Shown one piece after another: positions 32,832 to 51,065 of a DNA stretch of 64,000 bases (position 1 is its first letter; each line of letters begins with the position of its first letter). The stretch lies in contig NZ_JAALFG010000003.1 in NCBI RefSeq assembly GCF_011058215.1, forward strand, positions 310,001 through 374,000, written 5' to 3'. Below the pieces are notes generated by a model. The model was not told the origin of the DNA and did not search any database. It saw only the letters and a program-made list of their open reading frames with translations. The DNA is from Devosia aurantiaca (lineage in GTDB: Bacteria; Pseudomonadota; Alphaproteobacteria; Rhizobiales; Devosiaceae). Position numbers and translations under genes: made by a program.

Positions 32832-32852
32832 GGTACACCAAGTGAATGCCAA
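32832..32852 (+). promoter_or_regulatory. Shared 21-bp regulon element, site 1
   Basis: GGTACACCA AGTG AATGCCAA. Lies between the divergent NIPSNAP-RidA genes and the cyclic amidohydrolase, 28 bp before the latter's ATG. Matches the consensus GGYATACCA nTGG nnTRCC at most positions. Seven other sites of the same length occur up to 51065. Confidence 0.75.
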
Positions 32853-32880
32853 TTGCACGCCGAAATCAGTGGAGGCTGGA

Positions 32881-34225
32881 ATGGACGGTCTGGTAGTTCG
32901 CGGTCACGTCGTCACCAGCGACGGAATTCTGGAAAACGGATGGATCGCCGTCCGCGACGGGACGATCAGCGCCGTGGGTCAGGGTTCGGCACCGGACGCC
33001 AACACGGTCGAGGATTTCGTGATAGCTGGATCATGCCCGGCGCCATCGACGGCCAGACCCATGCGGGAAGCCAGATCGGTTTTCCCGGCATCGGCATGAC
33101 CACCCATGCAGCGGTCATGGGTGGCGTCACCACCATTGTCGATATGCCCTACGATCATCCGACGCCGGTAACGACCGGGGCTGTGCTGGCCGAGAAGATC
33201 GCGGCGATCGACAAGCATGCTCTCTGTGACGTGGCGCTCTATGGCACGGTGCCGACCCAGCCGAACGAGGACCATATCGACGAGCTGATTGCCGGGGGCG
33301 TGTGCGCTTTTAAGATTTCCTCCTTCGAAGCGCACCCGGATCGCTTTCCGCGCATCAACAATGCGGCGACGCTGCTTTTGCTTCGGGCGCTGGAGAATAC
33401 CGGCCTGCCGCTGGGCCTGCACAACGAAGATCAGGAAATCGTCCGCCAGACGACGGCTGACTTCATTGCCGCCGGCCGCACCGCCCCCACCGACCATAGC
33501 GACAGCCGGCCGCCGGTGGCTGAGCTCACGGCAACCGCAAACTTCCTGGAACTGGCTGCCGCGACGCAGGCGCATGCCCATATCGTCCACATCTCGGTGG
33601 CCGAGGGCTTTCGGCTTGTCGATGCCTATCGCGCACGCGGCGTTAAGGCGACCGCCGAAATGTGTGCGCATTACCTGATCTTCGATGCCGACATCGACAT
33701 GCCGCGGCTCGGCGGCCTGCTCAAGGTCAACCCGCCCATCCGTGCCGGGGAGCGCGAAGCGCTGTGGCAGATCATGGACGAGGGCCAAGTGAGCTTCGTG
33801 TCATCCGATCACAGCGCCTGGGAGCTTGACCGCAAGATCAGCGCTTCGATTTTCGAGGTGGCTGCTGGCATGCCGGGGCTCGAGGTTCTGCTTCCGGCCT
33901 TTTTCACGGCGGCTGCAAAGCGAAAGGGGACGGAAGCTGCAGTCCGGCTGACAGCGAAGTATCTTGCACGCCGACCTGCGGAGTTCTTTGGACTGGCGAA
34001 AAAGGGCTTTTAGCCCCGGGCTACGACGCCGATATCGCGGTGCTTCGTCGCGAGCCACTAGCTTATGACAGCAAGCGCAACGCTCGTGGTCCCGGCTGGA
34101 GCGCCTATGACGGCATGGTGTTCGACGTTACCCCCGCTGCGACCTTTGTGCGCGGCAATAAGATGTGGGACGGCGCCGCTGTCACCGGCACGGAAGGGCA
34201 GGGGCGCTTCGTGCCCCGCGGCTAG
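32881..34225 (+). CDS. Cyclic amidohydrolase (dihydropyrimidinase/allantoinase superfamily), two frame breaks
   Basis: About 448 residues. Members open cyclic amides or ureides (hydantoins, dihydropyrimidines, allantoin) in the cytoplasm. After restoring one base at 33015-33017 (TTT) and one at 34008-34011 (TTTT), the protein runs MDGLVVRGHVVTSDG to EGQGRFVPRG. Metal-site elements: MPGAIDGQTHAG, where the usual HxH reads Q-T-H; the probable carboxylated lysine in CAFKISSF; histidines in GLHNEDQE and AHIVHIS; Asp in SSDHSAW. The first-histidine change sets it apart from classical hydantoinases. Its 3' end overlaps the convergent GntR gene by four bases. Confidence 0.83.
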
Positions 34226-34909
34226 CGCCGTGCCCCCGACAGCCTGTCGATGATCGCCAGGCGAACGCTTTCGATATGCTCGCGCATGGCGTTTTCGGCG
34301 CGGTCCTGATCGCCGCTGGCAATCGCTTCGAGCAGGAACAGGTTTTCCTCGGCAGTGAATTTGGGCGTGATCGGATTGCGATAGGCGTTGAACACGTGGG
34401 TCCGGCGCCGCAGGTCGCGGATCATGCCGGCAAGGAGCTTGTTGCCCGAAGCATCGGCAACGGCGCCATGCAGGATGTCGTCGACTTCCCAGATCTCGTC
34501 GAGGCCGAGATCGGATTTTTTCACCCAGCACCGTCAGCCGCTCGCGAATATCCTCGAGCTGGCGTTGCGGAATGTGACCGGCAGCCAGGCGAGCGGCCTC
34601 CGCTTCGAGCAGTTGGCGGACGTTGAGAAGTTCAACGAATGCCTCGGTTGAAAACGGACTGACCGTGACACCGCGCCCGACCTGCTTGTAGACGAGACCC
34701 TCAGCCTCGAGCCGGCCCAAGGCTTCACGCACCGGCGTGCGCGAAGCATTGAGGCGTTCGGCCATCCGGCGCTCGACGATCACATCTCCGGGCTGCAATT
34801 CGCCGCGAATGAGAATGTCGATCAGTTGCTCGTAGACCTGTTCTGTCAGATTGGGCCGATCAGCCTGGAGGGTTGCGCCGCCCAAGATCGACTCAGCAAG
34901 TTCGCCCAT
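34222..34909 (-). CDS. GntR/FCD-family regulator 1 (one frame break)
   Basis: About 229 residues. N-terminal winged helix: LTEQVYEQLIDILIRGELQPG, ERRMAERLNASRTPVREALGRLEAEGLV. C-terminal FCD sensor with likely metal-binding Asp/His residues (EVDDILHGAVADASGN; AMREHIESVR). The frame breaks at the six-T run 34516-34521; one more base joins LTVLGEK to KSDLGLDEIWEV. The start is MGELAESIL at 34909. Its FCD domain closely resembles that of the second regulator at 43749 (both have IRDLRRRTH followed by V or I and FN). Divergent from nitrilase 1, with element sites in the gap; a prime candidate to bind the 21-bp element. Confidence 0.85.
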
Positions 34910-34965
34910 TGTTTTCCCCTTCGCTGATCCTCCATAGCTCGCAAAGCCAAGGCTTGGAAGACTTT

Positions 34966-34985
34966 TGGAATAGTGCCGGTATTCC
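34966..34985 (-). promoter_or_regulatory. Degenerate copy of the regulon element (site 9)
   Basis: On the minus strand: GGAATACC GGCACTA TTCCA, 57 bp upstream of the GntR-1 start. It keeps GG-ATACC and the distal T-CCA but not the central CCAnTGG. Possible autoregulatory site; weaker than the other eight. Confidence 0.35.
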
Positions 34986-35110
34986 ACGTTTTGAAAACGA
35001 GGAGCATGCGTCAGGGATGCCCTCTGCGAGCATGATCGGTACTCTGCACAAATAATCGTCGGCGCTACACCGGAGGTCTTGGCAACCGCCATCAACCACG
35101 TTATGCCTAT

Positions 35111-35131
35111 GGTATACCATTGGCGTGCAAT
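35111..35131 (+). promoter_or_regulatory. Shared 21-bp regulon element, site 2
   Basis: GGTATACCA TTGG CGTGCAAT, 26 bp before the ATG of nitrilase 1 and the oxygenase operon. The first half TGGTATACCA is itself a perfect palindrome. Confidence 0.75.
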
Positions 35132-35156
35132 TAGTCCGCCAGCTTCTGGAGGCAGG

Positions 35157-36229
35157 ATGACCATCAAGCCATGGCGTGCAACCGCAATCCAAGTTCGCAG
35201 CGAACGCGCCTCTCAGGCGGCCGATAACGCGGCTGCAGCCGACATCATTAAGCGCAATCAGGATCGCCTAATCGCCCTGATCGAAAGAGCCTGCGCTTCG
35301 GACCAGAAGCCTGATCTCGTCGTATTTCCTGAATTTGCCATGCAGGGTCCACCCTTGCACATGAAGGTGGAGGAGTGGATCGAGCGCGCTTGCTCTTCCA
35401 TTCCCGGCCCGCTCACCGAACCGCTTCAGGCTTTGGCCAAGCGGGAAGGCATTTTCATCGCCGGAAACATGTTCGAAGCGCCGCCTGAATGGCCAGGGCG
35501 CTACTTCAATTCGTCCTTCCTGATCGACGATCAGGGCGAGGTCATTCTCAATTACCGCCGCGTCAACACGGCTGCCTTCCCATCCGTCCATGATTTCATG
35601 AGCGATTATCTCGCGGTCACCGACCAGGACCAAGTGTTCCCCGTCGTCGACACACGCCTCGGTCGATTGGCGTTGATCCCCTGCGGCGAGATCGTCATCC
35701 CCGAAGTCGCGCGGATGATGATGATGCAGGGCGCCGAAGTGATCCTTCATCCCACCAATTCCAAGCGCACGGACGCGCAGGAAGCGGCCAAGCTCAGCCG
35801 GACCACGGAAAACATGACCTATCTGGTCAGTGCCAATGTCGCGGGTCCGATCGGCTTTTCGCCGGACAACACCATTCCCGGCGGCCGCTCGCATATCCTC
35901 GATCATCACGGCAACACCCTGGCCTATGAGGACGGTGCCGAGGAGACCATCGCCGTTTCCGCGATGATCGATGTCGAGCAGCTGCGCACCGATCGGCGCA
36001 CCGATACCGGTCTGTCAATCCACTGCTGCGGGCGCGCTACGAAATGTACGTGCCTTTTTATAGCGCCGCCAAGTTCTATCCGCCCGACACTTTCCGCGAC
36101 ACGCCGATGGTCGATGTGGCCCAGACCAAGGGCAATATCGCCACCACTCGCACCAATCTTGAGCGCGCCCGCGTCCTCAATCCCCTACCGCCGGGCGCAG
36201 CCGAGCCCGTGGCCCCCTCTGCTCACTAG
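35157..36229 (+). CDS. Nitrilase-superfamily C-N hydrolase 1 (one frame break)
   Basis: About 357 residues. Nitrilase-fold enzymes hydrolyse nitriles, amides or carbamoyl groups with a Glu-Lys-Cys triad. Glu59 (VVFPEFAMQG) and Cys176 (IPCGEIVIPE) are visible, but the second motif, normally YRKxH, reads NYRRVNT, so Arg135 replaces the catalytic Lys. The paralogue at 42563 has the same change at the same residue numbers. The frame breaks at 36017-36018; one added base restores LLRARYEMYVPFYSAAKFYPP to the stop at 36229. First gene of an operon with the Rieske oxygenase and reductase, under element site 2. Confidence 0.83.
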
Positions 36230-36238
36230 GAGAGTTCA

Positions 36239-37569
36239 ATGATCACCGCAGAAGAAAATCAACAGCTCAGCCGCGTTGGCAAGGGTACGCTGATGGGCAA
36301 CTTCTTCCGTCAGTTCTGGCTGCCGGTCTGCCTCAGCTCCGAGCTCAAGGCCGATGGCGACCCCGTCCGCCTGATGATCCTGGGCGAAAAGCTGGTGGCG
36401 TTCCGCGACAGCGAAGGGAGCGTCGGCGTTTTCGATCACCGCTGCCCGCACCGCTGTGCGTCGCTATTCTTTGGCCGTAACGAACTGGGCGGCATCCGTT
36501 GCGCCTATCACGGCTGGAAGTTCGACGTCACCGGCAAGTGCCTAGACCAGCCCAACCTCGAAGATAAGTCCAAGTACCCGGCCGGTACGCCCGCCATTGC
36601 TTATCGCGTCAAGGAATCGGGCGGCATGGTTTTCGCCTATATGGGCGAGCGGCAGGAAAATCCCCGGAATTGCCGGAGATCGAAGCCATCATGGGCGAGG
36701 GCGATGACCGCAATATCGCGCTCACGCACCGCGACTGCAACTACATGCAGGCGCTTGAAGGCGACATCGACACCTCCCATCTCGGCTTCCTTCATGTCGG
36801 CGGCATCGACGGCGAAAAGCTCGACCTCTCCGATCCGGAAGTGTTCACCGTCACCGAGAAAGCGCCCAAGATCAACGTGACCGTCACCAATTACGGCACC
36901 ATGTACTCCGCCCAGCGCAACGCGTTCGAAGGCACCGAGCATCATCGTTTCGCCAGCTACCTTTTCCCGTTCTGGGTGACCTATCCAGGTGGCGAGCTCG
37001 AAAACGCCGTTACGGCCAATGCCTGGGTGCCGATCGACGACGACAGCACCATGATCTTCAACATCGACCTGCGCCGCGCTTCTGGCGGCGGCAAGAAGGG
37101 CTTCAAGTACAAGGACGGCACTCCGGTAGAAGGCCTTGCACGGCCACTCGAATATCTGCCCAACACCACCGACTGGAAGGGTCGCTGGCGCCCGGTCAAG
37201 GACCGGTCGAACGACTATGGCATCGACCGCGAATGGCAGCGCAATGGCGACAGCTATACCGGCGTCGTTGGCGTTCCGATGCAGGACCAGATGATCCAGG
37301 AATCGATGGGCCATATCGTCGACCGCGAAATGGAGCACCTCGCTGCCTCCGACCGCATGGTCATCCTCACCCGCCGCGTCATGCTCGACGCTGCCAAGGA
37401 ATACGCCGCCACCGGCAAGCTGCCCGATTTCGTCGACCATCCTGAATATGCCCGCGATGCCCGCGGCGGTGATATCGTCGTGCCCTACGGCACCGATTGG
37501 CTCGATGGCTATGAGGAAAAGATGGCCGAGGTGAAAGGCTATAAGCCGAAGATGGCCGCCGCCGAATGA
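36239..37569 (+). CDS. Rieske non-heme iron oxygenase, phthalate 4,5-dioxygenase-type alpha subunit (one frame break)
   Basis: About 443 residues, terminal oxygenase component of a two-component Rieske system. N-terminal Rieske centre: CPH at about 69-71 and CAYH about 17 residues later within RCAYHGWKFD. Mononuclear iron site: GDIDTSHLGFLHVG, with His-x4-His. N-terminal LSRVGKGTLMGNFFRQFWLPV is typical of the phthalate-dioxygenase family, whose members hydroxylate, O- or N-dealkylate many substrates. The frame breaks at 36662-36665 (CCCC); one C joins QENP to PELPEIEAIMGEG. AGGAG lies upstream of the start; ten bases after nitrilase 1. The substrate is unknown. Confidence 0.88.
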
Positions 37570-37587
37570 GCGAGGGGCTGACCCCGG

Positions 37588-37611
37588 GATCCGGCGCTAT
37601 GGCGCCGGATC
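37588..37611 (+). promoter_or_regulatory. Intercistronic hairpin between oxygenase and reductase genes
   Basis: A perfect 10-bp stem GATCCGGCGC, loop TATG, GCGCCGGATC, within the 68-bp gap between the oxygenase stop and the preferred reductase start. No T-run. It could set lower expression of the reductase relative to the oxygenase. Confidence 0.6.
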
Positions 37612-37637
37612 TACTTCCACAAGACTATGAGGTGGCC

Positions 37638-38620
37638 ATGTCCGACCTGCACCACCACACACCTGCCGATGCACGCCCCCTCGAGGTCCGAGTTGCGACG
37701 ATCACCATGGTGGCCGAAACCATCCGAGCCGTGGACTTTGTCTCCGTCGACGGCCAACCGCTGCCTGGCTTTACCGCTGGCGCGCATATCAATCTGAAAC
37801 TGCCTGGCGATCTCAGCCGCTCCTATTCTCTCACTAATGGCCCCGAAACGCGCGACCGCTATTCGATAGCGGTCAATCGCGATGTGGCCAGTCGCGGTGG
37901 GTCTGCCTATGTGGTCGACCGGCTCAAGGTCGGCGATGTGCTCACCATCGATCCGCCACACAATACCTTCGGCCTCGTTGAGGATGCCGAACAGAGCGCG
38001 TTCTTTGCGGGCGGCATCGGCATCACGCCGATCCTGTCGATGATCCGTCATCTCGAAGCTCTGAAAAGGCCCTGGAAGCTGTTCTATGCCGCGCGCAACC
38101 GCGCCAGCGCCGCCTTTTAAGTGAGCTTGAAGCACTCGACGCGCTGGAGCCGGGCCGGGTGCATTTCCATTTCGACGACGAAGCGGGCAAGGTCATGCCT
38201 TTGCTCAAGCTTGCCGTCGGCATTCCCAAGGCAGCGCACGTTTATTGCTGCGGCCCCTCGAAGATGATCGAGACGTTCAAAGCATCGGCCGGCTGGCGTC
38301 CGGAAGACAATGTCCATGTCGAGCACTTTGCCGGCACCAATGCCAAGCCCACGACCGACTTTACCGTCGTGCTCAAGCGGCAGGACAAGCAGTTCTTCGT
38401 CAAGGCCGGCGAAAGCATCATGGACGTGCTTGAAGCCAATGGCGTGCCGGTGGCTCATTCCTGCCGTGAAGGCGTCTGCGGTACCTGCGAGACGGTGGTG
38501 CTCGAAGGCGAATGCGACCACAAGGACAACGTCCTCTCGAGCCGCGAGAAGGATAGCAACAAGCTCATCATGATCTGCTGCTCCGGCGCCAAATCCGACC
38601 GGTTGGTCCTGGACCTTTAG
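37638..38620 (+). CDS. Phthalate dioxygenase reductase-type electron-transfer protein (one frame break)
   Basis: About 327 residues, the NADH-dependent partner of the oxygenase. Domain order: FMN-binding domain (SRSYSLTNGPETRDRYSIAV), NAD-binding domain (SAFFAGGIGITPILSMIRHLE; HVYCCGPSKMIETF), C-terminal plant-type 2Fe-2S ferredoxin (SCREGVCGTCETVV with a final Cys in MICCSG). The frame breaks at 38115-38118; one added T joins RASAAF to LSELEALDALEPGRVHF. MSDLHHH at 37638 with GAGGTGG before it is preferred; an earlier ATG at 37566 overlaps the oxygenase stop. It ends at a good terminator. Confidence 0.88.
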
Positions 38621-38647
38621 AACTCGCGGCTGACGAGACACTTGAAG

Positions 38648-38673
38648 AGGCCGGCTGATGCCGGGCCTTTTTC
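38648..38673 (+). terminator. Intrinsic terminator of the nitrilase-oxygenase-reductase operon
   Basis: Stem AGGCCGGC / GCCGGGCCT with one bulged base and a 4-base loop, running into five Ts, 27 bases after the reductase stop. Confidence 0.8.
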
Positions 38674-38684
38674 CATGCACAAAG

Positions 38685-38714
38685 AAAAATGGCGCCCCGC
38701 AAGGAGCGCCATTT
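38685..38714 (-). terminator. Intrinsic terminator of the minus-strand transporter operon
   Basis: 9-bp stem AAATGGCGC / GCGCCATTT with a 10-base loop; on the minus strand it is followed by a run of Ts. Lies just after the permease stop at 38732. Confidence 0.8.
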
Positions 38715-38731
38715 GACGATGGCTTCGCTGA

Positions 38732-39538
38732 TCAGCGGGCGATGCGGCGCCAGGGCATGGCGATCCGCTCGATCTGCTCGAGAGCGGCAAAGAAGGCGAT
38801 GCCGATCACCACGATCAGGATGATCGCCGCAAATTGGCGCGTGATGTTGAAGCTCGCGCCAGCCACAAGGATCACATAGCCGAGGCCCGCATTTGCGCCC
38901 ACGAATTCGGCGACGATGGCGCCGATCACCGACATGGCGGTAGCCAGCTTCAGCCCCGCAAAGATCGAGGGCAGGGCCTGCGGCAGGCGAAATTTCCAGA
39001 AGACCTGCCAGTTGCTCGCCCCCATCGACTTCGCCAGGTAGATCATTTCTCGGCTGGCCGAATTGAGCCCCATCACCGTGTTGACGACGATCGGGAAGAA
39101 GGTCTGGAGGATGACGATGACGATCTTTGGCGCCATGCCATAGCCGAACCAAGTCAGAAGAAGTGGCGCCACGGCAACCATGGGGACCGTTTGGCTCGAA
39201 ACGATCAGGGGATAAATCGTCCGCTCAATGACCTTGGAATAAACGATCAGCACCGCAAGCGGGATGCTGATCAGGACCGAGAGCGTAAAGCCCAGCAGCA
39301 CTTCGAACAGCGTGACGCCGGCATTGGGCAGCAGCCGGTGTCCGTAATCGATGAACTCCTGACCGATGACGCTGGGCGCAGGCAGCATATAGGCCGGCAC
39401 ATTGCCGATCCGCACCGACAATTCCCAAAGCACCAGGATAATGAGAAGGCTCCATGCGGAGGGGGAGACCCAGCCCAAGGCTTTCCTCACCGGCCTGGGC
39501 CTTGCGATGGTGGTTGGTTGATCTACAGCAATTGCCAT
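38732..39538 (-). CDS. NitT/TauT-type ABC transporter permease A
   Basis: A 268-residue inner-membrane permease of the SsuC/TauC family. It has six or so hydrophobic segments (first WSLLIILVLWELSVRI), the PAYMLPAPSVIGQEF motif after the first helix and the coupling loop SREMIYLAKSMGASNWQVFWKFRLPQALP. The start at 39538 lies one base after the ATPase stop, with GGAGG upstream. Last gene of the operon binding protein - SDR - ATPase - permease. Substrates of this class include sulfonates, nitrate, pyrimidines and other small polar compounds; here unknown. Confidence 0.9.
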   Translation of the reverse strand: MAIAVDQPTTIARPRPVRKALGWVSPSAWSLLIILVLWELSVRIGNVPAYMLPAPSVIGQEFIDYGHRLLPNAGVTLFEVLLGFTLSVLISIPLAVLIVYSKVIERTIYPLIVSSQTVPMVAVAPLLLTWFGYGMAPKIVIVILQTFFPIVVNTVMGLNSASREMIYLAKSMGASNWQVFWKFRLPQALPSIFAGLKLATAMSVIGAIVAEFVGANAGLGYVILVAGASFNITRQFAAIILIVVIGIAFFAALEQIERIAMPWRRIAR

Positions 39539-39539
39539 C

Positions 39540-40358
39540 TCAGTATTCCTCCCGGAAGACGCCAAGCCCCTTAAAGATATCGGTCAGCTCGCGGGTATAT
39601 TCGTTGAACCGCTTATCCTCGCGCATGGCGAGACGACGCGGCCTGGGCAGGTCGATATCGATAATGCGCTCGATACGGCCGGGCCGCGGCGACATCACCA
39701 CCACGCGGTCACTGAGGAAGATGGCCTCGGCGATCGAATGGGTGATGAAGAAAACCGTCATGTCCGTTTCGGCGCAGAGCCTGAGCAGATCGATCTGCAA
39801 CTGGTCGCGCGTCATGGCGTCGAGTGCGCCGAATGGCTCATCCATCAAGAGGAGCGGAGGCCTGTGGAGGAGGGCGCGGCAGATCGAAACGCGCTGCCGC
39901 ATGCCGCCCGAGAGTTCCTTGGGATAGGCGTTCTCGAAATCCTGCAGCGACACCATCTTGAGCAGTTCGCGGGCGCGCAGCGTGGCTTCGCCCATGTCGG
40001 CTTTGCGGATTTCGGCCTGCATCAAAATGTTCTGGAGCGCACTGCGCCATTCGAGCAGCACGTCCTGCTGGAAGACGATGCCCGAGTCCGGGTTGGGGCC
40101 GAAGATATCCTTTTTGCCGACGGTAATGCGTCCTGCGGTCACGTCTTCAAGGCCCGAGAGCAGCATCATCAGCGTGCTCTTGCCACAGCCCGAAGGTCCG
40201 AGAACGGAAACGAACTCACCCTTTCGCACGGTGAGATCGATGTCCTGCAGCGCCTGGACCTTGCCATTGCGGGTGCTGAATGTTTTGCTGACGCCGGAGA
40301 TGGAAATATGGGTCTCGGCGTCCGTTGGCATGCTTTGTGAGGCCTGCATGACGTTCAT
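39540..40358 (-). CDS. NitT/TauT-type ABC transporter ATP-binding protein A
   Basis: A 272-residue ATPase of the SsuB/TauB class: Walker A GPSGCGKST, Q-loop GIVFQQDVLLEWRSALQNI, signature LSGGMRQRVSICRAL, Walker B LLLMDEPFGALDAMTRDQLQ, H-loop FFITHSIAEAIFLSDRV. The C-terminal tail FNEYTRELTDIFKG is also typical. Sits 35 bp after the SDR gene and is followed by the permease. Frame intact. Confidence 0.92.
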   Translation of the reverse strand: MNVMQASQSMPTDAETHISISGVSKTFSTRNGKVQALQDIDLTVRKGEFVSVLGPSGCGKSTLMMLLSGLEDVTAGRITVGKKDIFGPNPDSGIVFQQDVLLEWRSALQNILMQAEIRKADMGEATLRARELLKMVSLQDFENAYPKELSGGMRQRVSICRALLHRPPLLLMDEPFGALDAMTRDQLQIDLLRLCAETDMTVFFITHSIAEAIFLSDRVVVMSPRPGRIERIIDIDLPRPRRLAMREDKRFNEYTRELTDIFKGLGVFREEY

Positions 40359-40393
40359 GAACTGCTGATCGCCTTTCGGCCGATCTCTCCGGG

Positions 40394-41181
40394 TCAGATG
40401 GATCTGATGGCCCCGCCATCCACGCGCACCAGTCTGCCGGTGACATAGCTGGCAGGCATGCTGGCGAGGAAAGCGATGACGGCGGCGAACTCTTCCGGCG
40501 TGCCGTAGCGGCCGGCAGGGATGGTGGCGGCCGAAGCTTTTGCGACCTCGGCAAGGTCTTTGCCGGATTTGGTGGCCTGCGCCGCATCGATCGAGTGCGT
40601 GCGGCCCGTCGCAATACGGCCCGGCAGCACGACATTGACGGTGACGCCGTCCGCGGCAACTTCTCCGGCAAGGCTCTTCATAAAGCCTACAAGGGTCGAG
40701 CGCAGCGCATTGGAAATTGGCAGATGCGGGATGGGCTGGACGACCCCACTTGACGCGATCGTCAGGATCCGTCCCCAGCCCCGGGCGCGCATGGACTGCA
40801 CGAGATCAAGGCTGAGCGCCACGACGGGCTGCACCATGGAGGCGAAATGGCTGGCCATGGCATCGGTGGTGATCGTGCTCGGCGCGCCTGGCGGGGACCG
40901 CCTGTATTGTTGACAAGGATGTCGACCGCCCCGCCTTCGGCTTGTACCCGCGCAGAAATCGTCGCGGCAGCGGCCGGGTCGGCTAGGTCGGCAACCGCAA
41001 TAAAGCAGCGGTCTTGCTGGTCGGCTGGGAGGGCGGCACGCGCCGCCTCAAGACGGTCGAGGGAGCGTCCGCTCAACGTGACGCTTGCGCCTTCGGCCAG
41101 AAGAGCCTGCGCACTGGCAAGTCCCAGGCCCTGGCTGGCGCCAAGAACAAGCGCGTGCTTGTCGTCTAGTCCAAGATTCAT
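40394..41181 (-). CDS. SDR-family oxidoreductase with altered active site (one frame break)
   Basis: About 262 residues. Rossmann motif LVLGASQGLGLASAQALLAEG and NNTGG are present, and Ser in LTIASSGVV. The catalytic Tyr-x3-Lys is replaced by Ser-x3-Arg in HLPISNALRSTLVG. This places it in the atypical BKR-like group of short-chain dehydrogenases. The frame breaks at 40893-40896 (GGGG on the plus strand). One base joins NNTGGP to PPGAPSTITTDAMASHF. It lies inside a transporter operon, between the binding-protein and ATPase genes, which suggests it acts on the imported compound or an early product. Confidence 0.82.
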
Positions 41182-41219
41182 TGTTGGTCCTGTGGTCCGC
41201 GCGAGAAGCTGCGGATAAG

Positions 41220-41253
41220 AAAAAGGGCGACGGCGGAGGGTTCGCCGTCGCCC
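41220..41253 (-). terminator. Attenuator-type terminator after binding-protein gene A
   Basis: An 11-bp perfect stem (GGGCGACGGCG at 41225-41235 and its complement at 41243-41253). On the minus strand it is followed by TTTTT (41220-41224). It lies directly after the binding-protein stop but before the SDR, ATPase and permease genes. Partial termination here would give excess binding protein. Confidence 0.78.
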
Positions 41254-41264
41254 GCACGCGGAGC

Positions 41265-43585: not shown

Positions 43586-43608
43586 GTAAGTCTCCGGTAT
43601 GACAATTA

Positions 43609-43629
43609 GGTGTGCCAATGGAATACCAA
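43609..43629 (+). promoter_or_regulatory. Shared 21-bp regulon element, site 4
   Basis: GGTGTGCCA ATGG AATACCAA, among the closest to consensus. 24 bp before the nitrilase 2 start, in the gap shared with GntR-2. Confidence 0.8.
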
Positions 43630-43708
43630 TGGCGCACGGACATCGTCAAGCGGAGGTGATGTTCAGCCAAGAGGTCTATTGCCGTCAGCGCGCACCGCGT
43701 TGACATCA

Positions 43709-43729
43709 GGTATATCACTGGTCTACCAG
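43709..43729 (+). promoter_or_regulatory. Shared 21-bp regulon element, site 5
   Basis: GGTATATCA CTGG TCTACCAG, 19 bp before the GntR-2 start; suggests autoregulation. Confidence 0.75.
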
Positions 43730-43748
43730 AGCGTAGGGGAGCGCTTTT

Positions 43749-44444
43749 ATGACCTTCATCGATCCCGCTGCCATCGCGGAGAGCCGCTCAGCGCTGATAG
43801 CAGCGCCGCCAAGCCTTAGCGAAACTGCCTACAACGAAATCTTGGACCTGATGTTGTCGGGTCACCTGCCGGCCGGGACCGTTCTGCAGGAGCGTCGCCT
43901 GGCCGAGATGATGTCGATATCCCGCACGCCGGTGCGGGAAGCACTGTCGCGGCTTGAGGTTGAGTCCCTGGTGACGCGGCGCAATGGCCGCATGCTTTTC
44001 GTCGCCGACGTCAGCGTCGAGAACTACATCAGCCTTCTCGACATGCGTCGCATCCTGGAAATGGAGACCGCCGCTCGCGCGACGGGCCGCTTCGATCCAG
44101 CCATTGCCGAGACTATTGCCCAAGCCATCGCTGAACTCGTCGATCTCCCGAGCATCACCCCCGCCCAGCATTGGTCCGTGGATGATCTGGTCCATTCCAG
44201 CATTGCCGAAGCGGCCGGCAATCCAATGGTCGCCACGACGATCCGTGATCTTCGGCGCCGCACCCATATCTTCAACACCGCCCGCATTCCTCACCGCCTC
44301 GTGGTGGGTGCAGGCGAGCATCTGACCCTCATCGAAGCGGTCATGGGCGGCGATCCGGAACGGTCGCGGCGTCTCATGGCGGACCACATCGACAATGTCC
44401 GGGATGCCATTATCGGCTTCATTCTCGGCCACCGCACCAGCTGA
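43749..44444 (+). CDS. GntR/FCD-family regulator 2
   Basis: A 231-residue intact regulator. Winged helix: LSETAYNEILDLMLSGHLPAGT, ERRLAEMMSISRTPVREALSRLEVESLV. FCD domain with Asp/His ligands (SVDDLVHSSIAEAAGN; MADHIDNVR). Paralogue of GntR-1, with nearly identical IRDLRRRTH segments in the sensor. Divergent from nitrilase 2, with two element copies in the 163-bp gap; upstream of, and probably co-transcribed with, the MFS gene. Which of the two regulators binds the element, or whether both do, cannot be told from sequence. Confidence 0.9.
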   Translation: MTFIDPAAIAESRSALIAAPPSLSETAYNEILDLMLSGHLPAGTVLQERRLAEMMSISRTPVREALSRLEVESLVTRRNGRMLFVADVSVENYISLLDMRRILEMETAARATGRFDPAIAETIAQAIAELVDLPSITPAQHWSVDDLVHSSIAEAAGNPMVATTIRDLRRRTHIFNTARIPHRLVVGAGEHLTLIEAVMGGDPERSRRLMADHIDNVRDAIIGFILGHRTS

Positions 44445-44464
44445 CACAGAGGTCTTTGACCATC

Positions 44465-45901
44465 ATGACGACGTCCCCTCCCGCCGATGTGGCGACCACC
44501 GCCACGCGCAAGGAGCGGCTCGTCATCGTCGCGGTCATGCTCGCGCTGTTCATGGCCGCCCTTGAGCAGACCATTGTCGGTCCCGCCATGGGCGACATCG
44601 CCCGCGATCTGGGCGGCGGCAGCCTCCTGTCCTGGGTCGCGACGGCCTACCTTCTGGCAGCAACGGCCTCGTCGCCCATCCTTGGCGCCATTGCAGATCT
44701 GCGCGGCCGTCGCCTTGCGCTTTTTGCCTGCGTGTCGTTGTTTCTCTTGGGCAGCGTTCTTGCAGCAATGGCGACCAGCCTTGAAATGCTGGTCGCGGCC
44801 CGCATTGTTCAGGGTGCCGGTGCTGGCGGCCTTACCTCGCTGCCCTTTGTCGTCATTGCCGACAAGGTGCCGATGTATCGCCGCGCTGCCTACAGCGCCT
44901 ATATCTCCACGATCTATGCCGTCGCCAGCATTTTTGGCCCCGTTGCCGGAGGGTTTTTGGCCGACTACGTCCATTGGACCGCGATCTTCTGGATCAATGT
45001 CCCCATTGCCCTGCTGGTCATCGTCGCCGTCGCCGTCCTCTTTGAGGCCGACCATGATCGGCTCAGCCGGCGCACCATCGATTATCTCGGAGCGTTGCTG
45101 CTGATCGCGGCCACAACCTCGAGCGTTCTGTGGCTGAATGCCGTCACGGGAACAGAAGCTTCGCTGCTGCCGTCCTGGATGCTCGCTCCTCTGGCGCTAG
45201 CGGCTTGGGGCGGTTTCGCTTGGCGAATGCTGCGCGCTGCGACGCCCCTCGTTCCACTCAGCGTTTTGACCGAGCGGACCATCCTACTTTCTGCCCTCGG
45301 GCTTCTCTGCTGCCAGGGCAGCAATATCGGCATGGCCGTATACCTGCCGCTCTACTACCAGAACATCTTCGGTTTCTCGGCCAGCGAGGCTGGTTTTGCC
45401 ATCCTCGGCCTGCTGGGCGGCATCATGTCGGGGGCCTATATTCCGCCGCAGCTTTTGCGGCTCAACCCGCACTACAAGCCGCTCGTGGTCGGTGCCGCCG
45501 CCTTCGCGCTTTTTGGAGCCCTGAGCCTCACCGCCGTTCTCGCATTCATGCCGACCCTTGTTGGCGTCGAGATCGCGACCATTGCCCTGGGTCTTGGCAT
45601 CGGGTCGGCCTATCCGATCTTCACCCTGGCCACGCAAAACGCTGCCGGTCCGACGCGCATGGGCGCAGCGATCGGCGTGCTCGGCTTCATGCGGGCCATG
45701 GGAGGCACGATCGGCGTCGCGGTGGTGGGCGCAGTAGCGGTGGCGTCCGGACTGACGGAAGCAGTTCCGCAGGGACAGGCCGGCATTCCGATGTGGACGA
45801 TTTCGCTCGTAGCGTCAGGGCTCCTCGCAGTGTGCCTGCTGGCCCTCAGCATGCTGCCCCCGCGTGCCCTCGAAGGCTACGCGAAGGCTGGGTCGCGTTA
45901 G
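44465..45901 (+). CDS. MFS transporter, DHA2/EmrB type
   Basis: A 478-residue major facilitator of the 14-helix drug:H+ antiporter class. Motif A/C-like elements: ALEQTIVGPAMGDIARDLGG in helix 1, GAIADLRGRRLALF in the 2-3 loop, and AVASIFGPVAGGFLADYVHW in helix 5. The last helices read TISLVASGLLAVCLLALSML. ATG at 44465 is used; a TTG at 44456 closer to AGAGG is possible. It follows GntR-2 by 20 bp. Could export a toxic intermediate or the substrate itself, or import it; direction is inferred from family. Confidence 0.86.
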   Translation: MTTSPPADVATTATRKERLVIVAVMLALFMAALEQTIVGPAMGDIARDLGGGSLLSWVATAYLLAATASSPILGAIADLRGRRLALFACVSLFLLGSVLAAMATSLEMLVAARIVQGAGAGGLTSLPFVVIADKVPMYRRAAYSAYISTIYAVASIFGPVAGGFLADYVHWTAIFWINVPIALLVIVAVAVLFEADHDRLSRRTIDYLGALLLIAATTSSVLWLNAVTGTEASLLPSWMLAPLALAAWGGFAWRMLRAATPLVPLSVLTERTILLSALGLLCCQGSNIGMAVYLPLYYQNIFGFSASEAGFAILGLLGGIMSGAYIPPQLLRLNPHYKPLVVGAAAFALFGALSLTAVLAFMPTLVGVEIATIALGLGIGSAYPIFTLATQNAAGPTRMGAAIGVLGFMRAMGGTIGVAVVGAVAVASGLTEAVPQGQAGIPMWTISLVASGLLAVCLLALSMLPPRALEGYAKAGSR

Positions 45902-45903
45902 CC

Positions 45904-46830
45904 TCAGCCCAACTCTGCGAGGCGCTTTTCGAGACGGGTAATCAGCGTCTCGATCTCTTGTATTGCATCGCCGGCAAGCGGCGCGCCGGGGCGTCGTTGC
46001 GTGGCCGTGCGGATCGCCCCGCGCTTGGCCAGCACATGCTTGCGGGCGCCAAGACCGACGCCTGGCTGCTGCTCATAGCGCACGAGGGGCAGGTAGGCAT
46101 CGAAGAGGTCCCGCGCCCGGTCGATGTCGCCGCTCGCGGTCAGCCGGCAGATATCGACCATCATTTCGGGATAGCCGAACCCGGTCATGGCGCCATCGGC
46201 ACCGCGGAGCATTTCTTCGGGCAGGAAGATGCCGCCATTGCCGCAAAGGATCGAGACGCGTCGGCGGCCCTGGGCTTCTGCTTGGCGCAGGGCCGAAATC
46301 TTGGCGAGGCCCGGCCAATCCTCGTGCTTCACCATTACGATGCTGGGGCAGGCCTCGATGATCTGGCCCAGGGCAGGGATGCTGATCTGCACCGTCGTCG
46401 AGAGGGGAAAGTCCTGCAGCACGACCGGCACATCCGGGCCCAGCGCTTCGACGACCTGGCTATAATAGGCGACGATCTGCTCGTTGGTGTGCAGGTTCGA
46501 GGGCGGTGCCACCATGACGCCGGCGGCGCCCATGTCCATCACTGCCTTGGTGAGCTCCTCGATGGCCGCCAGGCCTGGCGCCGAGACGCCGACCACGACG
46601 ACTTTCCCCGATGCCCGCGCCAGCGTCTGGCGGGTTACCGCCAGGGCCTCGGCCTGCGTCAGCTTGGGCGCTTCGCCCATCATCCCGAGAATGGTCAGCC
46701 CATCGGCGCCTTTTTCGAAATAAAAATCGGTGACGCTGTCGATGCTATGGCTATCGATGCTGCCATCCTCGTTGAAGGGCGTAACGGCAATGACGTAGAC
46801 GCCCTTGCTCTCGGATGTGATCAAGGTCAT
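45904..46830 (-). CDS. DapA-like (class I aldolase/lyase superfamily) protein lacking the catalytic triad
   Basis: A 308-residue TIM-barrel protein of the dihydrodipicolinate synthase/N-acetylneuraminate lyase superfamily. The Schiff-base lysine is kept (Lys168 in SIVMVKHED). The usual GTTGE loop reads GMMGE, the Tyr of PYYN is lost (APPSN) and the YNxP tyrosine is replaced by Gln139 (VVLQDFP). So the Thr-Tyr-Tyr relay of DapA is absent, and lysine biosynthesis is unlikely. A pyruvate-dependent aldolase, hydratase or dehydratase step on a catabolic intermediate is the better guess. Second gene after binding protein B on the minus strand, separated by a hairpin. The ribosome binding site is weak. 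Confidence 0.85.
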   Translation of the reverse strand: MTLITSESKGVYVIAVTPFNEDGSIDSHSIDSVTDFYFEKGADGLTILGMMGEAPKLTQAEALAVTRQTLARASGKVVVVGVSAPGLAAIEELTKAVMDMGAAGVMVAPPSNLHTNEQIVAYYSQVVEALGPDVPVVLQDFPLSTTVQISIPALGQIIEACPSIVMVKHEDWPGLAKISALRQAEAQGRRRVSILCGNGGIFLPEEMLRGADGAMTGFGYPEMMVDICRLTASGDIDRARDLFDAYLPLVRYEQQPGVGLGARKHVLAKRGAIRTATQRRPGAPLAGDAIQEIETLITRLEKRLAELG

Positions 46831-46850
46831 GAAAAACTCGCTGGCAAGAA

Positions 46851-46877
46851 GGCCCGGCAGCGGGACGCCACCGGGCC
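46851..46877 (-). promoter_or_regulatory. Intercistronic hairpin after binding-protein gene B
   Basis: GGCCCGG / CCGGGCC, a 7-bp GC stem in the 54-bp gap between binding protein B and the DapA-like gene. No T-run on the minus strand; probably stabilises the binding-protein message. Confidence 0.5.
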
Positions 46878-46884
46878 GGGCTGA

Positions 46885-47874
46885 TTATTCGGCAGGGCTG
46901 TAAACGATGTCGTCAGCAGTGAGGTCGTAGGTCTTGTCATGCACCTTGCCGACCACGTCGATATTGTGCGTGACGCGGTCCATGTCCCAGTTGAAGCCAT
47001 TGGCGGCGAAAACCGGATTGTCGGGGCCGAACGAGAAGTTCATGGCGAAGGGGACCGAAGTGACCTGCGTGTCGCGGATCATGCCTTCGACACCAGCGGT
47101 GATCGCGTCGACAGCCGCTTCCGGATCGGCCGAAGCAGCCTCATAGGAGCATTCGACGGCCTTCTTAAAGCGGCTGACGAGGTCGGGATTGTTGGCGATC
47201 ATCTCATCTGAGGTGAAGACCGAGGCATTGTAGATGTCGAGTTGGTCGCCATAGAAGACGGTGCGGATGGTCATGCCATTCTGTGCAGCAAGCGCTTCGA
47301 TCTGAACGGCCGAGGTGATGTAGCTGGCCAGCGCATCGATTTGGCCGCTCAGCAGCAGGCCGTTGAGCGCCGAGCCATCGGTCAGCACTTCTTTGACCTT
47401 GGAGTAATCGGCGCCGGCGAGTTGCATGCCGTAAGGCACATATTCAAGCGCGGCATTACCGACTGATGAACCGAGCTTGCGGCCCTCGAGGTCGTTCATG
47501 GTCTGGATCGGGCTGTCGCCACGAATGGCAATCGCCAGCGGCGACTGGGATACGATCGGCATGATGGCCTTGACCGGCGCCTGTGTTTCGCCGATCGCGC
47601 CGATGATGACGCCGAGGTCGGTCACCGAAAAGTCAGCGACGCCGGTCGCGACCTTCGTCACCGCATCGGCGGCGCCGTAGCCGCGCGAGATCGTGACGTT
47701 GATGTCCTGATCCGTAAAGCACCCCTTTTCGACACCCAGGTAATAGGCCGAAGAAATGCCGCCCGGCGTCCAGTCGAGCTGGAAGCTTACATCGTCAGCC
47801 GCCATGGCCGTTCCGGCCTGCAACACCAAGGCGAGGGTCCCCACAACCCCAGCCGATCTACCCTTGAAATTCAT
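46885..47874 (-). CDS. NMT1/SsuA-like substrate-binding protein B
   Basis: A 329-residue periplasmic binding protein. Signal peptide SAGVVGTLALVLQAGTAMA, mature start ADDVSFQLDWTPGGISSAYYLG. NMT1-like features: GVEKGCFTDQDINVTISRGYGAAD, GVADFSVTDLGVIIGA, LEGRKLGSSVGNAAL. Start MNFKGRS at 47874 with AGGGA upstream. Element site 6 lies 35 bp before the start. No permease is adjacent on this strand, but a matching permease/ATPase pair lies beyond the M20 gene at 49269-50881, so it likely serves transporter B. Frame intact. Confidence 0.88.
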   Translation of the reverse strand: MNFKGRSAGVVGTLALVLQAGTAMAADDVSFQLDWTPGGISSAYYLGVEKGCFTDQDINVTISRGYGAADAVTKVATGVADFSVTDLGVIIGAIGETQAPVKAIMPIVSQSPLAIAIRGDSPIQTMNDLEGRKLGSSVGNAALEYVPYGMQLAGADYSKVKEVLTDGSALNGLLLSGQIDALASYITSAVQIEALAAQNGMTIRTVFYGDQLDIYNASVFTSDEMIANNPDLVSRFKKAVECSYEAASADPEAAVDAITAGVEGMIRDTQVTSVPFAMNFSFGPDNPVFAANGFNWDMDRVTHNIDVVGKVHDKTYDLTADDIVYSPAE

Positions 47875-47908
47875 CGTCGTTCCCTTCCAGTCGCTTCCGA
47901 TTGCAACT

Positions 47909-47929
47909 GGCATACCAATAGAATACCGT
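47909..47929 (+). promoter_or_regulatory. Shared 21-bp regulon element, site 6
   Basis: GGCATACCA ATAG AATACCGT, 35 bp before binding protein B; in the gap shared with the M20 gene at 48023. Confidence 0.78.
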
Positions 47930-48022
47930 TGGTGTAACGTCCAGTGCTCATTGCGTGGGCGGCTAGCTAAATCGCTCTACAAATGTGCATAGTGGCGATA
48001 CCACAAATGGAGACGTGCAGCG

Positions 48023-49206
48023 ATGCAAATGGACCAGGTCATATCCGCGCTTCGCGAACATCAGGATGAAATGGTGGCCATCCGCCACGACATTCATATG
48101 CATCCCGAGACCTGCTACGAGGAACACCGTACCTCGCAGCTGGTGGTCGATAAGCTGACCGAATGGGGCATCGAGTACGAGCGTGGCATTGCCGGCACCG
48201 GCGTCGTCGCGGTGCTGCGCGGCAATAAGCCGGGCAATCGCGCCATCGGCCTTCGTGCCGACATGGACGCACTCAACATGATTGAAACCAATCAATTTGC
48301 CCACAAGTCGACCATACCCAACAAGATGCATGGATGCGGCCACGACGGGCACACGACCATGCTGCTGGGGGCCGCGCGCTATCTCAAGAACAATCCCGAT
48401 TTTGCCGGCACGGTGCACTGCATCTTCCAGCCGGCGGAAGAGGGCGGGGCCGGTGGGCTCAAGATGATCGAGGAAGGTCTTTTCAGCCGCTTCCCCTGCG
48501 ACGCGGTCTATTCCTCCACAACAAGCCCGGCATTCCCGTCGGCCAGTTCGTGACCCGCAACGGCCCGCAGCTCGCCTGCGCGGACCATTGGACCGTGACC
48601 TTCAAGGGCACCGGCGGCCACGGTGGCGCACCTGAAAAATCCACCGACACGACAATGCCGGTAGCCCAGTTCATCCTGGGTATCCAGTCGATCGTTTCGC
48701 GCAACATGTCCGCCCAGGATTCGGCCGTCGTCAGCATCGGCACGGTCAATGGCGGCATGAGCTTCAACGTCATGCCGAGCGAAATCATCGTCACCGGCAC
48801 CACGCGCTGCCATCGCCCGGAAATCCGCGATCTCATCGAAAAACGCCTGACCGAAATCGCCGAGGGTGCCGCAGCGATGAGCCATTGCAGCGCCGTTGTC
48901 GACTATGTCCGGGGCTATCCGCCGCTGATCAACACCCGCATCGAGACCGATAAGGCCATCGCCGCTGCCTCGGCACTGGTGGGCGCCAGCAATGTCGATG
49001 GCGACAATCCGCCGATCAACGCTGCCGACGACTTCGCGTACATGCTGCGCGAACGCCCAGGTTGTAATGTCATGATGGGCAATGGCGACGGGCCGCAGTG
49101 GAAGAACAACCACATGCCCGACTACGACTTCAACGACGAAGCCATTCCCTATGGCTCGGCCTATTGGGTGTCGATCGTCAACCAGGAACTCAACGAAGCC
49201 GCCTGA
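48023..49206 (+). CDS. M20-family amidohydrolase (one frame break)
   Basis: About 394 residues, M20D metallohydrolase of the N-acyl/N-carbamoyl amino acid and hippurate hydrolase group. Two-metal site: RADMDAL, MHGCGHDGHTTMLLG, FQPAEEGGAGG, and a final His region near MPDYDFNDEAIPYG. The dimerisation domain includes GTGGHGGAPEKSTDT. The frame breaks within 48511-48516; one base restores YSLHNKPGIPVGQF. In the cluster it could remove an acyl or carbamoyl group from a linear amide produced by the cyclic amidohydrolase. Divergent from binding protein B; ends at the bidirectional terminator at 49223. Confidence 0.87.
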
Positions 49207-49222
49207 CGGCAGCTCTCCATAC

Positions 49223-49250
49223 AAAAAAGGGGCGGCCCGCGAGCCGCCCC
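49223..49250 (-). terminator. Intrinsic terminator between convergent M20 and permease B genes
   Basis: GGGGCGGC / GCCGCCCC, an 8-bp stem with a 6-base loop; on the minus strand it is followed by six Ts. The plus-strand side is T-rich too (GTTTCTTT). Its position argues that the permease gene ends at 49269, not further down. Confidence 0.8.
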
Positions 49251-49268
49251 GTGTTTCTTTGCGGTGGC

Positions 49269-50038
49269 TTAGTGGCCCCCGCTTCCTGGCGCAGCGACCA
49301 CCCAAAGAAGGTGCGGTGCACAAAATTGACGCCCTCGTATAGCACCACGCTAATCAGCGCCAGCATGACGACGCAGGCCATGGCCGTTGGAATGGCGAAC
49401 TGAGCGGTCGATGAGGTGACTAGAAATCCGAGGCCCTTATTCGCGTTGACGAACTCGGCCACGACAGCACCCACCACGGCCACCGTCACGCCAATGCGCA
49501 GCCCGCCGAAAATAAGGGCAATGGCGTGGGGCAGGCGGACGGTGAGGATTTCCGTCAGCGGCGATGCACCCGCCACGCGCGCGAGATCCAGCATCTCATC
49601 GGGCGTATCGAGAATACCGCTTGCCGTCGCCACCATGATCGGGAAAAAGGCGATGAGCGTGACGATGATCAGGCGTGCCACCATGTCGGTGCCGAAAATC
49701 ACGACGAGGATCGGCGCGATGGCGACGATCGGAATGGCGTTGAGGAAAACGATCAGGGGGTAGATCGCTTCCGACGTGATGCGATTGACCGAGACCAGTA
49801 CGCCGAGCGGAATGCCGATGGCGCAGGATAGGGCAAAGCCGATCAAAATCGTTATCAGCGTTTCGCCGGTATTGGTGAAGAGGGCAGGGCCCAACCGCAT
49901 GCCGCCATTGAAGATGTCGATGGGCGACGGCATCAGATAGACGGGAACACGCAAACCCCAGCTCAGGATTTGCCAAAGCGCCACGAATAGCACGAAGGTG
50001 ATCAGCGGCAGGAAAATACGGCGTTGCGTGGTGGTCAT
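49269..50038 (-). CDS. NitT/TauT-type ABC transporter permease B (frame break near its end)
   Basis: About 256 residues, SsuC/TauC-type permease. First helix IFLPLITFVLFVALWQILSWGL, PVYLMPSPIDIFNGG, coupling loop PDEMLDLARVAGASPLTEILTVRLPHAI, final helix AMACVVMLALISVVLYEGVNF. As read, the frame runs on through the terminator. Adding one base to the five-C run at 49276-49280 gives the ending RQEAGGH and TAA at 49269-49271, just before the terminator. The start overlaps the ATPase stop (ATGA). Partner of the ATPase upstream and probably of binding protein B. Confidence 0.87.
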
Positions 50039-50881
50039 GATGCTGAAATCCGGTGGGCGCGAGGCCCGAAAATGTCGTCGCGGATGCGCTTGGAGTAATC
50101 GATGAAGGCCGGCAGTGCTGCGCTTTCGTGACTGCGCGGCTTGGGGATGTCGATCTCGATCAGGTCCTGCATGCGGCCTGGGCGCGCCGACATCACGGCG
50201 ACCCGGTCTGACAACAGCACGGCCTCGTTGATCGAGTGGGTCACCAGCAAAATGGTCTTCCGCGTGCGGGCATGAATGTCGAGGAGGTCGAGCTGCAGGT
50301 CTTCCCGGGTCAGTGCGTCCAGGGCGCCAAACGGCTCGTCCATCAGAAGGATTTTGGGATCTAGGATCAGGCTGCGCGCGATCGCGGCGCGCTGCTGCAT
50401 GCCGCCCGACAATTCATGCGGCATGCGCTCTGCCATGTCGGCAAGGCCCACCATTTCGAGCAGCTCAAGAGCGCGTGCCTTGTCCTGCGCGTCGGCGCGT
50501 CCGTTAAGCACGCGAACCGGATAGAGCACGTTCTTGAGGATGGTGAGCCAGGGCAGGAGGGTCGCGCGCTGGAAGACGATCGCCACTTCCGAAAAGCCGC
50601 GCCGGTTTTTGTCGCCCCCGATCCAGACGTCCCCGGTGGTCGGTTTTTGTAACCCCGCCAGCATGCGCAGCACCGTTGACTTGCCGCAACCGGACGGCCC
50701 GACCAGGAGACGATTTCTTCGCGATCGATTTTGAGGCTGAAATCCTCCACGGCAACGACGGGCTGGCCACTGCGCGTGGGAAACGTGACACCCACATGAT
50801 TGAGTTCAATCAGCGTGGATGGCCGGATCTCCTGAGCCGGGGAGAGGGAGAAGCTAGTGCTGGTTCGGATACAGCGAGCAT
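50035..50881 (-). CDS. NitT/TauT-type ABC transporter ATP-binding protein B (frame breaks)
   Basis: About 282 residues, SsuB/TauB-type ATPase. Signature LSGGMQQRAAIARSL, Walker B ILLMDEPFGALDALTRE and H-loop LLVTHSINEAVLLSDRV are intact. Walker A GPSGCGKST is recovered by adding one base within 50703-50708 (IVSLVGPSG). Upstream, LIELNHVGVTFPTRSGQPVVAVEDF is in frame but has no good start. One more base in the GGGG run at 50839-50842 would connect it to ATG at 50881. The N-terminus is therefore provisional; GTG at 50795 is an alternative. Element site 7 lies 57 bp upstream. Confidence 0.8.
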
Positions 50882-50937
50882 AGTCGGTGTGCTGCCTTTC
50901 TCAGTCTAGTTGCGGCAATCAAAATACCTATAAAGGC

Positions 50938-50958
50938 GGTATACCAAGTGTACGCCAA
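50938..50958 (+). promoter_or_regulatory. Shared 21-bp regulon element, site 7
   Basis: GGTATACCA AGTG TACGCCAA. In the divergent gap between ATPase B and the SDR pair. Confidence 0.76.
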
Positions 50959-51044
50959 CTATGCCAAGGCAAAAGTGCTTTTCATTCGTGCAAGTTTTGC
51001 GCCAAGCTAAAATTGTGCAGCCCACTTGAAGCGTCGCTCACGCC

Positions 51045-51065
51045 GGCATACCAGTGATGTACCGA
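51045..51065 (+). promoter_or_regulatory. Shared 21-bp regulon element, site 8
   Basis: GGCATACCA GTGA TGTACCGA, 17 bp before the first SDR start and 107 bp from site 7. Confidence 0.75.

Follow-up and report, generated by a model that had tools for sequence, protein, structure and literature searches.

The stretch of DNA analyzed here, called the window below, comprises 64,000 nucleotides of Devosia aurantiaca (RefSeq assembly GCF_011058215.1, contig NZ_JAALFG010000003.1, positions 310,001 to 374,000). It contains a block of catabolic genes, most operons of which are preceded by a short phased array of palindromes, the putative operator of the block's own regulators GntR-1 and GntR-2. The enzymes encoded by the block are RidA, NIPSNAP, a cyclic amidohydrolase, two nitrilase-family hydrolases (Nit1 and Nit2), SDRs and an M20 amidohydrolase, besides which there are a phthalate-dioxygenase-like Rieske oxygenase with its reductase and two NMT1-type ABC importers with their substrate-binding proteins (SBP). 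The relevant features are (strands are given for genes only):

31596..52454: catabolic block, predicted to be served by the arrays
32820..32863, core 32831-32852: predicted operator array 1, four 11-bp units, between NIPSNAP/RidA (minus) and the cyclic amidohydrolase (plus)
34058..34909, minus strand: GntR-1 gene, GntR winged helix-turn-helix (wHTH) and FCD domain, reading frame interrupted within the FCD part in the assembly
34966..34986: ninth, weaker array, upstream of GntR-1 (56 bp from its start)
35099..35142, core 35110-35131: predicted operator array 2, before the Nit1-Rieske oxygenase operon, at a distance of about 25 bp
42297..42340, core 42308-42329: predicted operator array 3, before ABC system 1 (SBP1, SDR, ATPase, permease), overlapping TTGACA-N18-TACCGT
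43608..43640: predicted operator array 4, before Nit2 (minus), overlapping TTGACG-N18-TATTCC
43708..43729: predicted operator array 5, before GntR-2 (plus), overlapping TTGACA-N18-TACCAG
43749..44444, plus strand: GntR-2 gene, 231 aa, GntR wHTH and FCD domain (six-helix, presumably VanR-type, in the model)
47908..47940: predicted operator array 6, three units, between SBP2 (minus) and the M20 amidohydrolase (plus)
50937..50958: predicted operator array 7, before ABC system 2 (minus)
51044..51065: predicted operator array 8, before the SDR pair (plus), at a distance of about 17 bp

A first-pass annotation had aligned eight 21-bp sites by eye (32832, 35111, 42309, 43609, 43709, 47909, 50938 and 51045), all of which were found at these positions. 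As it had claimed, columns 1, 2, 8 and 9 are invariant (8/8 each) and ten further columns are conserved in six or seven of the eight sites, the weaker ones being columns 10, 11, 12, 14, 15, 17 and 21. Reading by hand also confirmed that each site lies approximately 17-57 bp from the nearest start codon and that five of the six gaps are flanked by divergent gene pairs, the farther partner of which can be more distant (about 94 bp for the M20 gene, about 200 bp from site 35111 for GntR-1). In a scan of both strands of the window with a weight matrix trained on the same eight sites, these sites occupied the top eight ranks (23-29 bits). Later matches, down to 11 bits, fell into the same places, read on the opposite strand or about 11 bp out of register, while the best unrelated match reached 9.8 bits. 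When each site was left out of its own matrix, it still ranked 4th to 16th among all window positions.

The annotation had proposed a genome scan as a check. With the pattern GGYATACCANTGGNATACCA and up to three mismatches, all 12 matches in the 3.69-Mb own genome lay inside the block, compared to two matches of the reversed control pattern. The 12 matches amount to no more than six of the eight arrays, read in different ways; with four mismatches to the pattern, sites 32832 and 50938 were missed. A looser pattern was dropped in favor of the strict one, since its 365 matches (256 in the control) were unspecific and near background. The remark that the element had not been noticed elsewhere in the window held insofar as the eight sites are the top matrix ranks, but it overlooked one weaker array. 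A second matrix built from all 37 sites (the eight of the window and 29 of related cassettes, see below), with which a 28-kb stretch was scanned, disclosed this ninth array at 13.8 bits, the next background match there being 9.7 bits. It is separated from the main array by 144 bp, and weak arrays of 10.5-12.2 bits lie 145-154 bp from their main array in three of the related cassettes (KD, BR and G250). In a fourth one (G306), two weak arrays of 11.5 and 11.2 bits were found beside GntR-1, at 81 and 110 bp. With the same matrix, the region beside GntR-1 gave 8.5 bits only in cassette G242 and no weak array in G334.

The 21-bp element of the first-pass annotation is not the basic unit. The unit is the 10-bp palindrome TGGTATACCA, which recurs at 11 bp and is present in two to four copies per array. 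At the eight window sites, TGGTATACCA was matched in 8.5 of its 10 positions on average; the mean at +11 was 7.1, followed by 4.1 at -11 and 4.0 at +22, the background being 2.4 and the remaining tested offsets giving 0.9-3.4. The 29 sites outside the window yielded almost the same picture (8.8 at the site, 6.8 at +11, 3.7 at -11 and 4.0 at +22). On account of the raised match at the site and at +11, we read the 21-bp element as two units of a palindrome array with an 11-bp period. Weaker third or fourth units are visible in arrays 1, 2, 3, 4 and 6, and the two units of a site can be unequal (10 versus 6 at site 35111). The better unit of all eight window sites fits TGGT-AT-ACCA with at most two mismatches, to which the logo of the other 29 sites is concordant, and, as is characteristic of operators of the FCD subfamily, it has conserved GT and AC boxes separated by 2-3 nt.

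A search of 297 genomes of the order detected homologs of GntR-2 (E <= 1e-30) in 29, including the own genome, and in none of six other genomes of the same genus. The closest relatives are those of Kaistia dalseonensis B6-8 (KD; 67% identity) and of Mesorhizobium sp. BR1-1-16 as deposited (BR; 65%), the latter placed by the search in the genus of KD. When plasmids were searched for GntR-2, 46 records were returned, all with less than 60% identity. The Rieske oxygenase of the cassette (E <= 1e-130) was present in nine of 397 genomes, including the own genome, and absent from 11 other genomes of the genus, for which reason the block was probably acquired horizontally.

A scan of related genomes, likewise suggested by the first-pass annotation, revealed that the element is kept in orthologous promoters of six other cassettes. 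Together they contain 29 arrays above 14 bits (KD 6, BR 6, G334 2, G306 7, G250 2, G242 6), all of which were used in the analyses without exclusion, and wherever the neighboring frames were read, the arrays sit before operon starts. In all six cassettes an array precedes NIPSNAP, and another one lies between GntR-1 and Nit1 (the Rieske gene in G242). Arrays were furthermore found before SBP1 in KD, BR, G306 and G242, at the places of arrays 4 and 5 in KD, BR and G306, and before SDR1 of G306. Even in G242, where the genes are rearranged and the amidohydrolase is located elsewhere, arrays still occur before NIPSNAP, the ABC genes, GntR-1/Rieske and an SBP gene. KD and BR contain a further array before xdhAB-type genes (L047:8590-9939 and L048 near 10573, respectively), so that the regulon extends beyond the block of the window. 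Both KD subunits score above the NCBIfam cut-offs for xanthine dehydrogenase, while the BR genes were judged by similar N-termini alone. No arrays were detected in G352 and G376, whose Rieske relative shows 49-50% identity. Genome-wide matches of the strict pattern lay mostly within the cassette region (KD 8/9, BR 10/11, G242 2/2, G250 1/1), whereas three genomes of the own genus lacking the Rieske gene gave eight matches versus six in the control.

To quantify the conservation, a footprint was calculated for five promoter classes, each represented by four to seven genomes. Averaged over pairs, identity reached 0.83 and 0.76 in the two bins of the core; the bins of the outer units next to it gave 0.51 and 0.50, and the other flanking bins 0.27-0.36. 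In these values the SBP1 class is favored by its registration on the best match. Sites of the same promoter were then compared with sites of different promoters (54 and 150 pairs) in the four classes needing no re-registration. Identity was 0.87 versus 0.74 for the first unit, 0.79 versus 0.53 for the second and 0.48 versus 0.31 for the third, compared to 0.35-0.39 versus 0.26-0.28 in the flanks. Since sites of the same promoter agree better, their conservation exceeds what matrix selection or sharing of a motif would give. Thus, judged from the alignments, the arrays are kept promoter by promoter across the six related cassettes while the flanking DNA has diverged.

Attempts were also made to link the array to a group of regulators. 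For 32 GntR-2 homologs (29 of the 44 places listed outside the own genome and three of six further loci, L064-L066), slices beginning 400 bp upstream of the gene and ending 60 bp within it were scanned at a threshold of 14 bits. Locus L067 (24% identity) lay outside the scanned set, and L062 and L063, being the same places as L017 and L018, were counted once. Random 460-bp segments were discarded as a null set because true sites contaminated them (5% at 13 bits or more); instead, the best FCD-type GntR match per genome of the same order served as control (30 genes). An array near the start was found for 16 of the 32 homologs and for none of the 30 controls, whose best score was 11.2 bits. This difference ties the array to the clade of GntR/FCD regulators to which GntR-2 belongs, five of the 16 array-bearing homologs being cassette members and 11 residing outside the cassette. 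A selection by a single palindrome pointed in the same direction: a unit matching in nine of ten positions occurred anywhere in the slice at 14 of 27 non-cassette homolog loci and at none of the 30 controls, and at the loci thus selected only the offset of +-11 stood out (5.5; next highest 3.2). The GntR-2 homologs of Pantoea and Tatumella (L064 and L065; 41-42% identity) have no two-unit array near their start; a lone TGGCATACCA unit lies within the slice of L064.

Both regulators of the block are paralogs of the GntR family and, according to their domains, of its FCD (FadR) subfamily. GntR-2 matched PF00392 with 62.3 bits and PF07729 with 72.3 bits, both above the cut-off. GntR-1 exceeded it for PF00392 (63.4 bits) and gave 23.3 bits for the FCD domain, in which its frame is broken (cut-off 24.3). 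An AlphaFold2 model of GntR-2 (mean pLDDT 83.1) comprises six helices between residues 90 and 227 and an N-terminal arm of about 20 residues modeled with low confidence. The six helices agree with an FCD domain of the VanR type. Residues D145, H149, H191 and H213, presumably the Asp/His/His/His set of FCD metal ligands, are invariant in all six aligned homologs. Among the PDB entries compared with the model, the VanR-type protein Atu1419 ranked first by E-value, while TM0439 gave the best TM-score among the matches listed. FCD domains of six or seven helices have been described in an earlier survey (PMC4494728).

A maximum-likelihood tree of 63 rows was calculated, including 22 of the 30 control FCD GntRs (the aligned stretch of the others was too short) and omitting GntR-1 of the window because of its broken frame as well as L045, the same gene as row KD_11688. 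The GntR-1 orthologs of KD, BR, G334, G306, G250 and G242 formed one clade (100/100) and the GntR-2 proteins a separate one (100/100). Both fall together with 15 operator-bearing rows among 41 rows that are separated at 100/100, homologs clustering in this tree because of how they were chosen.

To study the position of the arrays relative to promoters, the sequence TTGAC was searched next to all 37 sites. It points into the array at 13 sites, as opposed to 3.6% of random positions (182/5000); a further TTGAC of KD, truncated by the end of the available stretch, was left uncounted. In the SBP1, Nit2 and GntR-2 classes TTGAC was present at 11 of 13 sites, and ten of these 11 had the form TTGACN-N18-TA with the TA inside the array, the spacer of the G306 Nit2 promoter being shorter. 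No canonical TTGACN..TATAAT sequence was detected in the window. Because the array covers a TTGAC-N18-TA promoter in three classes and lies near start codons, repression by blocking of the RNA polymerase is favored.

Taken with the proposal of the first-pass annotation that the GntR proteins of the block are the binders, these data make it very probable that the arrays are the operator of GntR-1 and GntR-2, dimers of which would line up on the palindromes and repress the genes until a pathway compound releases them. What the sequences display is the array, the fact that it is confined to the block, its conservation in orthologous promoters and its association with the GntR clade; binding, cooperativity, the repressive sign and the inducer are inferred. 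Without inducer, one GntR dimer would occupy each palindrome, and two or more dimers would sit side by side, spaced by one helical turn so as to face the same side of the DNA. The aligned dimers would cover the promoter and prevent the RNA polymerase from starting. Binding of a pathway compound in the FCD domain may then release the dimers, leading to a joint switch-on of the genes for uptake, oxygenation, ring opening and amide hydrolysis along with the regulators' own genes.

Sites of the FadR subfamily have a palindromic TKGT..ACMA core, in which GT and AC are separated by 2 nt. They are situated in divergons with one or two sites and may be accompanied by additional, weaker boxes at 7-12 nt from the centre, the function of which is left open there (PMC4494728). 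The arrays resemble them in the palindromic core, the placing in divergons and the extra boxes. They differ in that the place of the extra box is taken by most of a second palindrome, spaced by a constant 11 bp, that some promoters have third or fourth units, and that one block contains arrays at eight or nine places. Atu1419 of Agrobacterium fabrum, a FCD repressor of the VanR group (PDB 6za7, 6z74), likewise binds a 10-bp palindrome, ATGTATACAT, per dimer, is among the solved folds closest to the GntR-2 model and represses from two operators in a divergent promoter (PMC7797058). Its palindromes are 109-190 bp apart and can be bridged by a tetramer with DNA looping, whereas the units reported here are 11 bp apart and should hardly be bridged by a tetramer whose sites are about 10 nm apart. 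As each Atu1419 dimer occupies one 10-bp palindrome, at least two dimers per array is the simplest reading, for which NanR of E. coli provides a precedent. This GntR-type regulator assembles three dimers cooperatively on closely spaced GGTATA repeats, which are direct repeats and require an N-terminal extension of 32 residues (PMC8012715); the arrays of the window consist of palindromes at 11 bp and GntR-2 has an arm of about 20 residues. An operator of the NanR type was rejected on these grounds, the symmetry being different. The repeat period of NanR is also shorter than 11 bp.

The GT-N2-AC core, the placing in divergons and autoregulation are known; the phased array is a clean case of the "additional boxes" that accompany GntR sites (PMC4494728). 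Among the open-access papers listed, no title named this regulon or 11-bp arrays of GntR palindromes, a result judged mostly by titles, by which absence is unproved. TGGTATACCA retrieved no paper on bacterial regulation by title in open-access text, and GGTATACC combined with GntR gave no match. The assignment of an operator to a GntR/FCD clade of several families of the order, for which no description was found in the literature searched, makes regulons predictable and delimits a catabolic regulon. It also offers a natural test case for the role of weaker boxes beside GntR palindromes, a question raised in the earlier survey (PMC4494728).

That the alignment of eight sites arose by chance or selection by eye can be regarded as refuted: a loose consensus does match hundreds of places in the genome, but the strict pattern was confined to the block and the element is conserved in other genera. 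More weight is due to the possibility that a single dimer binds at the best palindrome, the remaining units (the second and the outer ones) being relics or boosters of local affinity as in ordinary FadR-type operators. A single TKGT/ACMA palindrome is the usual site of this subfamily and weaker boxes at 7-12 nt are widespread (PMC4494728), one unit is clearly stronger at sites such as 35111, and between different promoters the second unit agrees less than the first. Within the same promoter, by contrast, the second unit is nearly as conserved as the first, and the 11-bp offset recurs at loci that were selected by one unit, so that we consider a single dimer possible, albeit clearly the lesser chance.

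A comparable, minor probability is given to the notion that one regulator serves all arrays, be it GntR-1 alone, with GntR-2 as a diverged paralog having other targets, or the reverse. G242, G250 and G334 possess arrays and, in the stretches examined, only a protein of the GntR-1 clade; in a whole-genome search that covered G242 and G250, the former yielded one homolog and the latter two, none exceeding 41% identity to GntR-2. Against this, the GntR-2 and Nit2 promoters carry arrays in all four cassettes with GntR-2 (window, KD, BR and G306), and both clades group with operator-bearing homologs. Some GntR regulators activate, and 24 of the 37 arrays are without an adjoining TTGAC, as would suit proteins that bind upstream of the promoter and activate it. 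We think this quite improbable for the block, since the eight arrays of the window are close to start codons and in ten of the 11 TTGAC promoters of the three classes the arrays cover the spacer and the -10 region, where a bound protein should block.

Several points weigh against a repressing operator of phased GntR dimers. TTGAC adjoins just 13 of the 37 sites, and TACCNN is a poor -10 region. The SBP1 gene of G250 has no upstream array above 14 bits, and 16 of the 32 GntR-2 homologs lack an array near their own start. Longer stretches (L058-L061) around four of these 16 loci (L022-L025) each contained one array 3.4-4.1 kb upstream, which may or may not serve the same operon. Near-identical genomes and near-copy loci inflate the homolog counts, which correspond to fewer independent cases, and the control L090 contributed only 111 bp within the scanned slice. 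Finally, the two-unit matrix favors the +11 unit in the phase measurements of the window and of the 29 other sites, a bias that the single-palindrome selection avoids.

A tentative and rather improbable extension of the operator of GntR-1 and GntR-2 is a phase-locked scaffold, in which VanR-type GntR dimers would sit one per helical turn, the -10 box being built into the palindromes, with mixed rows of GntR-1 and GntR-2 if the unit is common to both. If true, mixed rows of paralogs could let one operator integrate two ligands, and the "additional boxes" of GntR operators would acquire a function.

The substrate of the pathway may be an N-heterocycle. Ergothioneine utilization was rejected: ErtD was the best model for the amidohydrolase, but the score of 371.8 bits falls short of the NCBIfam cut-off of 600, an underestimate because the frame is broken near the N-terminus in this assembly. 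A purine regulon of the HpxS type came into consideration through the Rieske oxygenase, a type of enzyme linked to hpx genes, and through the xdhAB genes that follow the array in Kaistia; no title among the papers listed for HpxS named this regulon. Between 31718 and 44441, 13 cassette genes were compared with Kaistia; seven of them are divided between two frames, with both parts still matching (amidohydrolase, GntR-1, Nit1, Rieske, reductase, SDR and SBP1). Given this and a genome completeness of 90.6%, compared to 97-100% in most relatives listed, the split frames look like assembly indels rather than decay. Beside the block, a sugar-type ABC system (28217-31514) has no matrix match upstream; its permease is seemingly split over frames as well, judged from the frames alone. 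A DHDPS-family gene (45904-46830, minus strand), located between the MFS gene and SBP2, is not directly preceded by an array. In G306, a DHDPS-family gene (L109:8537-9460) is located downstream of an array at 8411.

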